DNA of 57,360 bases, taken from NCBI GenBank assembly GCA_030066015.1, contig JASJCL010000031.1, forward strand, positions 1 to 57,360. The letters run 5' to 3'. Positions 50,802 to 51,760 of the stretch are shown in pieces. The notes under the pieces are model-generated. The model was given only the letters and a program-made list of their open reading frames with translations, ran no database searches and had not been told where the DNA came from. Position 1 is the stretch's first letter; each line of letters opens with the position of its first letter. This stretch comes from Desulfosarcinaceae bacterium (GTDB taxonomy: Bacteria > Desulfobacterota > Desulfobacteria > Desulfobacterales > Desulfosarcinaceae). The position numbers and the translations under genes were made by a program.

Positions 50802-50840
50802 AAAAAAGGCAGAGCCTCCGAAGAGGCCCTGCCTTTTTTT
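50802..50840 (-). terminator. Bidirectional terminator with UUCG tetraloop on the minus strand
   Basis: The minus-strand stem GGCAGGGCCTC/GAGGCTCTGCC closes with C(TTCG)G, the exceptionally stable tetraloop, contains one G-U pair, and is followed by six T. On the plus strand the loop is CGAA, there is an A-C mismatch, and seven T follow. The better stem and the upstream small genes point to use on the minus strand. Confidence 0.85.
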
Positions 50841-50884
50841 ACCGCCGGATCGGCGTGTACGATTTCTATGCCTTTGGTTCAGAA

Positions 50885-50895
50885 GCTCTGCCTTT
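50885..50895 (-). promoter_or_regulatory. Alternative pairing arm for the terminator
   Basis: Read on the minus strand this is AAAGGCAGAGC, an 11-base perfect complement of the terminator 3' arm (50805-50815), better matched than the terminator's own 5' arm. It could act as antiterminator. Confidence 0.45.
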
Positions 50896-50905
50896 AACCA
50901 TACCC

Positions 50906-51001
50906 TCAGATCTTGCAGGCGGCATCTGCGTTCTTCCGGCCGGCCACACATCTGTTGATAAAGTACGCCAGCGTAAGGAGCGTCAGTGTCGTTCCAATCA
51001 T
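50906..51001 (-). CDS. 31-residue membrane peptide
   Basis: The ATG at 51001 has GGAAGG (AAGGAAGGTG context) upstream. The peptide is hydrophobic (IGTTLTLLTLAYFIN) then basic and polar (RCVAGRKNADAAC), i.e. one membrane helix followed by a positive tail. It starts 18 bases after the preceding 44-residue gene and ends 66 bases before a strong terminator on the same strand. It is below normal gene-calling size. The similarity in size and design to the 28-residue peptide of the symporter operon is notable, but the sequences differ. Function is unknown. Confidence 0.6.
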   Translation of the reverse strand: MIGTTLTLLTLAYFINRCVAGRKNADAACKI

Positions 51002-51019
51002 TGAGCACCTTCCTTTCCG

Positions 51020-51154
51020 TTAGCCAGCGACATCGATTCCCATGTCACACCCCAGATGCTCGTCGGGCTTGTCGCACTGGAAGTTGGCTTCGCGCGTATC
51101 AACGTGTCCTTCATTTCTCTCGTCAGTATAGTCGTCAGTTCTATTCTCGGACAT
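51020..51154 (-). CDS. 44-residue acidic small protein
   Basis: The ATG at 51154 is preceded by GAGGTGAT, a perfect complement of the 16S rRNA 3' end, six bases upstream. The product is very acidic and polar (SENRTDDYTDERNEGHVDTR) with two cysteines towards the end (FQCDKPDEHLGCDMG). It has no hydrophobic segment and is probably cytoplasmic. A predicted minus-strand promoter lies about 65 bases upstream, and a membrane peptide gene and terminator follow. A longer open frame on the opposite strand has no binding site. No family recognised. Confidence 0.6.
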   Translation of the reverse strand: MSENRTDDYTDERNEGHVDTREANFQCDKPDEHLGCDMGIDVAG

Positions 51155-51760
51155 GCTATCACCTCATTGGTAAGCTGTATTAAGTGCGTTTTGTACTAGT
51201 TTCTTGCTTCAATCATAAAATACCGCATCATCAGCGGTGTGCAATAAGGGGCATAGGGGGGGCTTATGGTAGGCAATAACTATTACTTTTCTCCGTCGGC
51301 AATTAATTGCTATTTCAGCATAAAGTGCTTTCAACCATTTAGTATAATTGATTTTATTTCACCTTCATTGGAAAAAGACACCCTTACCTCTGACGATTGC
51401 CGTAAAAATGGTGCACCTTTTCCATCGAACCGGAGCACACCGCCGAGTCATCAATGGAAGTACCAGCCCGCCCCGCCGAGTCGAATCATTATGGCCCCAT
51501 CTTTTTTTCCGTGTCCGCGCTGCCCGGTGTGTGGGTCCAAAAGAAATAGCAACGCATCATCCGCAACAGAATATGGGACGCGCTGAACTGAATAAGACGT
51601 ATTCCTATAGAAAGGCGGGGAAGAATTCCATCGCAAAAGCGTGACAGAAGGATCGACGCGATCCCCTTGGGCTAGAAATGGCGTTGCGAAGAACCACCCT
51701 ATTCCAAATCCTGATTGCCAATAGCGCAGATGTGTTAGTTTCCTGTTAGGCGTTGGCGGG
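51155..51760. other. Intergenic region upstream of the small-gene unit
   Basis: 606 bases, AT-richer than average around 51290-51380. Apart from the minus-strand promoter at 51217-51244 nothing is recognised; short plus-strand frames lack support. Confidence 0.55.
51217..51244 (-). promoter_or_regulatory. Predicted promoter of the two small genes
   Basis: On the minus strand, TTGCAC (51239-51244), a 16-base spacer and TATTTT (51217-51222). The spacer contains CCGC-N7-GCGG (51223-51237), a possible regulator site. Confidence 0.45.

Follow-up and report, generated by a model that had tools for sequence, protein, structure and literature searches.

A small two-gene unit of Desulfobacterales shares a predicted operator with protection-type operons and may belong to a PAS-LuxR-controlled regulon

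The window, a stretch of 57,360 nucleotides from a Desulfosarcinaceae bacterium, encodes on its minus strand two very small proteins, ORF1 and ORF2. On balance, we favor the interpretation that this unit is one of several dispersed copies within a photo-oxidative/UV-type protection regulon of Desulfobacterales, under the control of a PAS-LuxR protein. Because the unit carries the same predicted control switch as genes for light and oxidation damage, ORF1 and ORF2 probably take part in the corresponding protective response. Light or oxidation as the signal is read from gene content, that is, from likenesses rather than from a demonstration of the signal. The two peptides look like new small-protein families in a stress regulon of a known kind, and both the operator and the regulator appear to be undescribed.

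Results

Architecture of the ORF1-ORF2 unit

ORF1 (51020-51154, minus strand, ATG start, TAA stop included) encodes an acidic protein of 44 residues with an invariant Cys-x8-Cys motif, and its ribosome site is GAGGTGAT. ORF2 (50906-51001, minus strand, ATG start, TGA stop included) follows the sequence GGAAGG and encodes 31 residues with a hydrophobic N-terminal half and two invariant cysteines. Both frames, each with a strong ribosome signal, are located where the original prediction had placed an acidic 44-residue protein and a 31-residue peptide. The predicted UUCG-loop terminator is likewise present as a 17-pair stem at 50802-50839 (minus strand), followed by a U tract; the 116 nt around the stem fold at z = -4.96. 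A generic sigma-70 scan did not report the ORF1-ORF2 promoter. Comparison of copies reveals it as a -35 box TTGCAC (51239-51244, minus strand) separated by a 16-nt spacer from a -10 box TATTTT (51217-51222, minus strand), in agreement with the upstream promoter that had been proposed. Transcription would be expected to start near 51210. Judged by these signals, the assignment of ORF1 and ORF2 to a single transcription unit is supported.

Two further elements had not been described for this stretch. An operator-like inverted repeat, TAATAGTTATTGCCTACCA, lies at 51267-51285 (minus strand), 22 nt 5' of the -35 box, and the spacing from this repeat to the TTG of the box is conserved among copies. 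A conserved RNA element of the form GGCAGAGCUUC-N8-AGGCAUA occupies 50867-50892 (minus strand), 3' of ORF2. No Rfam match came close to a gathering score.

Two small-protein families under purifying selection

Of 195 related genomes, 55 encode a relative of ORF1 at E<=1e-5 (a list made by hand) and 77 do so at E<=1. Relatives of ORF2 are encoded in 36 of the 195 at E<=1, and in 25 of 97 genomes at E<=0.1 by profile search. When 395 genomes sampled evenly from the phylum were searched with the ORF1 profile, 3 gave a match: the own genome plus two others from its order, and none outside this order. A scan of named genomes gave 102 stretches encoding ORF1 relatives; the best 80, corresponding to 79 distinct loci, were retained. 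Their labels include Desulfosarcina, Desulfatitalea, Desulfobacula, Desulfotignum, Desulfospira, Desulfamplus and Desulfocicer; many read only "Deltaproteobacteria" or "Desulfobacterales", and one reads Bacteroidales. The last is an ORF1-ORF2 unit (L097, 94-325) on a contig labeled Bacteroidales UBA10428, which is probably misbinned. A search of viral contigs returned no relative.

The median dN/dS is 0.175 for ORF1 (219 of 903 pairs with usable pS) and 0.36 for ORF2 (58 of 276 pairs), values that describe a mixture of orthologues and paralogues with synonymous sites close to saturation (median pS 0.73-0.74). When the +1 frame is read as a control, pN exceeds pS for ORF1 (0.32 vs 0.26) and slightly so for ORF2 (0.46 vs 0.43). 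The homologue and dN/dS comparisons that the original prediction had proposed as checks thus agree with its claim that both small genes are real, and by sequence comparison we regard their status as genes under purifying selection as confirmed. All of 105 ORF1 proteins have the Cys-x8-Cys motif, and each of 34 ORF2 peptides has two cysteines. Invariant residues include H17, D19, R21, C27, C36 and D41 in a 27-row alignment of ORF1, and M1, I2, G3, Y13, N16, C18 and C29 in a 21-row alignment of ORF2. The mean net charge is -8.0 for ORF1 (range -13 to +4) and +2.1 for ORF2.

The claim that neither peptide resembles a recognizable family also stands, with 0 matches for the two window proteins in Pfam and in NCBIfam. 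The search of 38 ORF1 and 21 ORF2 relatives against Pfam gave stray weak matches only, ORF1 relatives had no match in PADLOC, and the best hit of a profile search of the PDB had an E value of 1.6. The structure model of ORF1 is without confidence (pLDDT 57) and not usable. In the open-licence literature we found no paper with these peptide sequences or on small proteins in Desulfobacteria.

Copy number and neighborhood

ORF1 is commonly present in several copies per genome or in tandem arrays; in the own genome, they are found singly on contigs C70 and C39 and as three in tandem on C52. ORF2 is present in 35 of the 106 copies with enough downstream sequence, and 32 of these 35 units have an ORF1 of 44 residues. 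It is absent in 71 copies, comprising 59 in which ORF1 is not 44 residues long and 12 more in which it is. These 71 copies weigh against an obligate ORF1-ORF2 pair, and the arrays without ORF2 argue that ORF1 is able to act alone as well.

Conserved neighbors were at first rejected as a functional guide. Among 80 loci (the 79 and the window), the largest neighbor cluster covers 12 loci at scattered distances and on either strand, and no functional neighbor recurs across many of them. The suggested link to a carboxylate symporter operon finds no backing here, as the symporter frame lies beyond the terminator. Two further clusters were set aside by their coordinates as spurious frames, antisense to ORF1 or overlapping it. 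One eight-locus cluster (-582 to -5419) was identified by position and sequence as PAS-LuxR in the six loci checked (L085, L086, L092, L117, L121 and L140), its other two members being L135 and L136.

A common operator and promoter geometry

What the ORF1 copies are shown to share, at the level of sequence, is an operator-like repeat and a fixed promoter geometry. The 19-bp inverted repeat TGRTAG-N7-CTAYCA is found in 80 of 103 distinct ORF1 copies with at least 120 nt upstream, in upstream regions that otherwise differ. By our own reading, 12 of the 23 copies without it are downstream members within tandem arrays. A TTG follows exactly 22 nt past the repeat in 78 of the 80 sites, four of which read TTGTTG and so have a TTG at 19 nt as well. 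In 66 of the 77 copies with operator and correctly spaced TTG, the best spacer between the -35 and -10 boxes is 16 nt. The dyad is centered near -66. In the own genome, the operator with the 22-nt spacing is found at each of the three ORF1 units. Five ORF1 copies labeled Desulfotignum (L104, L112, L114, L116 and L133) are without the operator and have a -35 box similar to TTGACT or TTGACA.

The position weight matrix gives the window operator a score of 23.7, and the next best other place in the 57 kb scores 10.0; with the copies of the own genome left out of the matrix, the values are 23.3 and, on the same strand, 9.7. At a score of at least 13, the operator ahead of ORF1 is the one place in the whole window. 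The matrix was derived from ORF1 promoters with a seed picked by eye, so that independent evidence comes only from matches that are not at ORF1, from the controls with the reversed pattern and from sites adjacent to PAS-LuxR genes.

Other operons behind the same module

The module of operator, 22-nt gap and TTG, allowing one mismatch, has 101 matches in 44 genomes, compared with 20 for the reversed pattern (46 matches in 12 genomes and 55 in 32, with 10 and 10 for the reversed control). Sorted by hand, 43 of the 101 sites are next to ORF1, one is next to a lone ORF2, one is at a contig end and 56 are elsewhere. Some matches without an obvious target will be due to chance, as the reversed controls imply. 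Of the 56 sites away from ORF1, 43 were inspected. The family names below come from representative proteins, several of them partial, with the remaining members assigned by eye.

A gene for a two-domain SAM methyltransferase is behind the module in seven genomes (G005, G014, G017, G026, G037, G143 and G161), and an MFS_2/DUF1295/cyclopropane-synthase operon in five (G005, G012, G022, G139 and G143); the case of G022 is clear for the MFS gene alone, and the operon of G005 begins with DUF1295. An M50 protease gene occupies this place in four genomes (G008, G028, G031 and G068). Fasciclin, DUF2177 and desaturase-amine oxidase-DUF1365-CMAS operons are found in two genomes each, UvdE, SOUL and Chalcone_3 as single cases, and Lipocalin_2 and DUF2062 are also among these families. 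The site of UvdE, a UV endonuclease, is among the weaker ones, with a score of 13.4. The operator is common to ORF1 and to gene families known from protection against light or singlet oxygen; in related genomes, the same predicted operator is shown to front other operons of a protection type.

Several short proteins are also encoded near these sites. A protein of 82-83 residues without a Pfam match is behind the operator in the own genome and in G025 (the pair L177 and L234). One of about 100 residues is found in G009, G079 and G022 (L194, L228 and L231), and one of 70 residues, hydrophobic by eye, in two genomes (L181 and L189); for each of these two families one member was checked and had no Pfam match. 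A short family with two cysteines and a GRYAGN end (L242 and L244) is located near operator sites, and the L244 protein has no Pfam match. In G017, a gene of the peroxidase family PF00141, KatG-like by eye (L264, 9212-11419), follows a methyltransferase gene and a RudS-like gene.

A candidate PAS-LuxR regulator

In many loci, a PAS-LuxR gene is located directly ahead of the module and the methyltransferase gene. The encoded protein matches GerE (PF00196) above the cut-off and PAS_4 slightly below its cut-off. In a six-row model (pLDDT 79.6, pTM 0.46) a PAS-like fold is present, so that GerE HTH and PAS fold are combined in one protein. A fold search matches the model to chains of VqmA and EL222 at E values of about 1e-6 to 1e-5, among many PAS/LOV chains; whole-chain TM scores are low (about 0.3) and the identity is about 15%. 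The photoactive cysteine of LOV domains sits in the motif GxNCRFLQ. By eye, the PAS-LuxR protein reads GxNYLxxC where this cysteine would be expected, and it does not qualify as a canonical LOV protein.

Orthologues of PAS-LuxR (listed by hand at 250 bits or more, with G025 in two pieces, G094 partial and G152 with an internal stop) are present in 39 of the 55 hand-listed ORF1 genomes and in 15 of the 140 without ORF1 on that list; with the own family left out, the figures are 22 of 36 and 13 of 129. The operator is found in 31 of 33 ORF1 genomes with PAS-LuxR versus 4 of 14 without, a tally of 47 scored genomes that sets aside G001, G054, G079, G094, G143 and G189, which had no usable upstream sequence or ORF1 string match. 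With four cases added from other data (G043 and G139 with a site, G094 with none, and G084 with a site at a second copy), the counts are 33 of 36 versus 5 of 14; the Fisher p value of 1.2e-4 (previously 1e-5) overstates the association, as related genomes are not independent. Sixteen of the 55 ORF1 genomes are without PAS-LuxR, and 5 of the 14 scored among these still have the operator.

A site scoring at least 13 is located within 350 nt past the PAS-LuxR stop, on the same strand, in 26 of 38 scorable loci (44 were given, 6 were not evaluable, and two of those scored are from G019), or in 20 of 31 once seven loci picked with a nearby site already known are left out (L267-L272 and L274). Five of the 26 sites are in genomes without a good ORF1 match (G013, G045, G074, G083 and G192), which argues that the site follows the regulator and not ORF1 alone. 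In PAS-LuxR loci of the Desulfosarcina type (L296, L297, L305-L308 and L321), the site is without a TTG at the usual distance. No such site was found within this range in the own genome (best score 8.7) or in G031, G057, G061, G070, G079, G097, G104, G122, G139 and G141; in G017 it is further downstream, behind other frames, and in G057 and the own genome PAS-LuxR is instead located ahead of ORF1. The operator also stands ahead of the PAS-LuxR gene itself in G017 and G028. No site was seen ahead of this gene at L267, L269 and L271, and the stretch ahead of it was not covered at L268 and L270.

The PAS-LuxR gene shares a contig with ORF1 in several genomes. That of the own genome presents in line PAS-LuxR, the methyltransferase, NmrA/DUF2867, RudS, the operator and three ORF1 copies; the RudS-type gene within this cluster combines 2-thiour_desulf and DUF1722. 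In G002, the order is PAS-LuxR, operator and ORF1-ORF2. A PAS-LuxR paralogue of G019, 50% identical, also has a site behind it, so that more than one PAS-LuxR protein could be the acting one. A search of the open-licence literature found no paper on PAS-LuxR in sulfate reducers.

A conserved element in the 3'UTR

Of 35 units, 24 have the exact 11-mer GGCAGAGCUUC at 7-19 nt past the ORF2 stop, and 11 do not have it at this place. The wider 3'UTR pattern has 9 matches in 5 genomes, all of them ORF1-ORF2 units by position, and the control has 0. This conservation suggests a possible second role of the transcript as a regulatory RNA. Pairing of the element with the terminator as an antiterminator was set aside, as the stems of L021, L024 and L049 change without a matching change of the element. 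By eye, stretches similar to GGCAGAG can also be made out in the gaps that separate tandem ORF1 copies and within some of the 5' leaders.

Discussion

Furan fatty acids are made in Rhodobacter by UfaM, UfaD and the DUF1365 protein UfaO (PMC7380195), and the genes for their synthesis are in the core sigma-E-ChrR singlet-oxygen regulon (PMC6852236). The regulon proposed here likewise contains lipid genes of the UfaD/UfaO/UfaM type; the Rhodobacter system relies on a sigma factor and an anti-sigma factor, whereas here a sigma-70-like promoter is combined with an operator (PMC6852236, PMC7380195). The light-induced LitR/CarH regions of Pseudomonas, with genes for photolyase, SDR, FAD oxidoreductase and UfaM, are similar in their SDR, FAD-dependent oxidoreductase and UfaM-type methylase; their regulator LitR is of the MerR family, whereas here the candidate is a PAS-LuxR protein with a 19-bp repeat near -66 (PMC9758184). 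The genes inspected in the present analysis did not include an identified photolyase. RudS genes are reported to be frequent in light-responsive operons (PMC11417400), and blue-light data of Vibrio include a putative CFA synthase (PMC5241685).

In the mechanism that we propose, the PAS domain would sense light, oxygen or a redox change, and the PAS-LuxR protein would bind the inverted repeat near -66 and recruit RNA polymerase to the -35/-10 promoter. The two peptides have opposite charges and two cysteines each, and ORF2 is hydrophobic in its first half; these features suggest a membrane-anchored pair with a possible four-cysteine site. More tentatively, ORF2 may be placed in the inner membrane with its basic, cysteine-bearing tail toward the cytoplasm, the acidic Cys-x8-Cys protein ORF1 may dock at it, and a redox or metal site built from the four cysteines could protect the membrane. 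ORF2 may have the regulatory or membrane-partner role that was originally suggested for the pair.

Other explanations differ in what they take to be the regulator or the product. We consider it rather unlikely that control is exerted by an OxyR-like activator of the LysR type, with the PAS-LuxR gene as only a neighboring member of the regulon. LysR-type recognition sites have a T-N11-A form and are located near -66, which is also true of the repeat described here, and the PF00141 peroxidase gene is near one operon; however, it is PAS-LuxR that is found again and again next to the sites, and genomes with PAS-LuxR tend to be those with the operator. We are similarly doubtful that the unit serves chiefly as a coding small RNA, whose 3'UTR element and terminator would regulate other messages while the peptides are secondary. 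The exact 11-mer in most units despite near-saturated synonymous sites, the confinement of the wider pattern to ORF1-ORF2 units in 5 genomes, and the strong terminator with its U tract are in favor of this reading, but both ORFs are under selection at the protein level and 11 of the 35 units do not have the exact 11-mer there. In Rhodobacter, Pos19 is reported as a coding small RNA (PMC5036791); it resembles the unit in being a short transcript of a stress regulon with a small ORF that is translated, and differs in having one ORF and an alphaproteobacterial host.

If the unit were a selfish repeated element or resembled a type I toxin-antitoxin system, with a toxic small hydrophobic peptide, the multiple copies and the short hydrophobic ORF2 would be accounted for. 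We hold this to be very improbable, given the strong constraint on the acidic ORF upstream, the sharing of a stress operator with other operons, the viral contigs without a relative and the ORF1 proteins without a PADLOC match. To the idea that ORF1 and ORF2 are chance frames we give practically no credence; their conservation refutes it, and after the comparison nothing speaks for it. The preferred interpretation remains a PAS-LuxR-controlled protection regulon with dispersed ORF1-ORF2 copies. An extended version of it, which we offer as a speculative and not very probable proposal, is that an undescribed PAS-LuxR protein and its 19-bp operator run a light- and oxygen-damage regulon in anaerobic sulfate reducers, whose most amplified target would be a coding RNA with two jobs: it would encode two cysteine-bearing peptides that together make up a redox or metal site anchored in the membrane, and it would supply a 3'UTR RNA whose 11-nt seed is conserved.

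The analysis defines two conserved small-protein families outside Pfam and NCBIfam and places them in a testable context, for which operator, regulator and regulon are all predicted. Should light or oxygen prove to be the signal, the regulon would reveal in what way anaerobic sulfate reducers make ready for exposure at the sediment surface, and which genes of as yet unknown function join that response.
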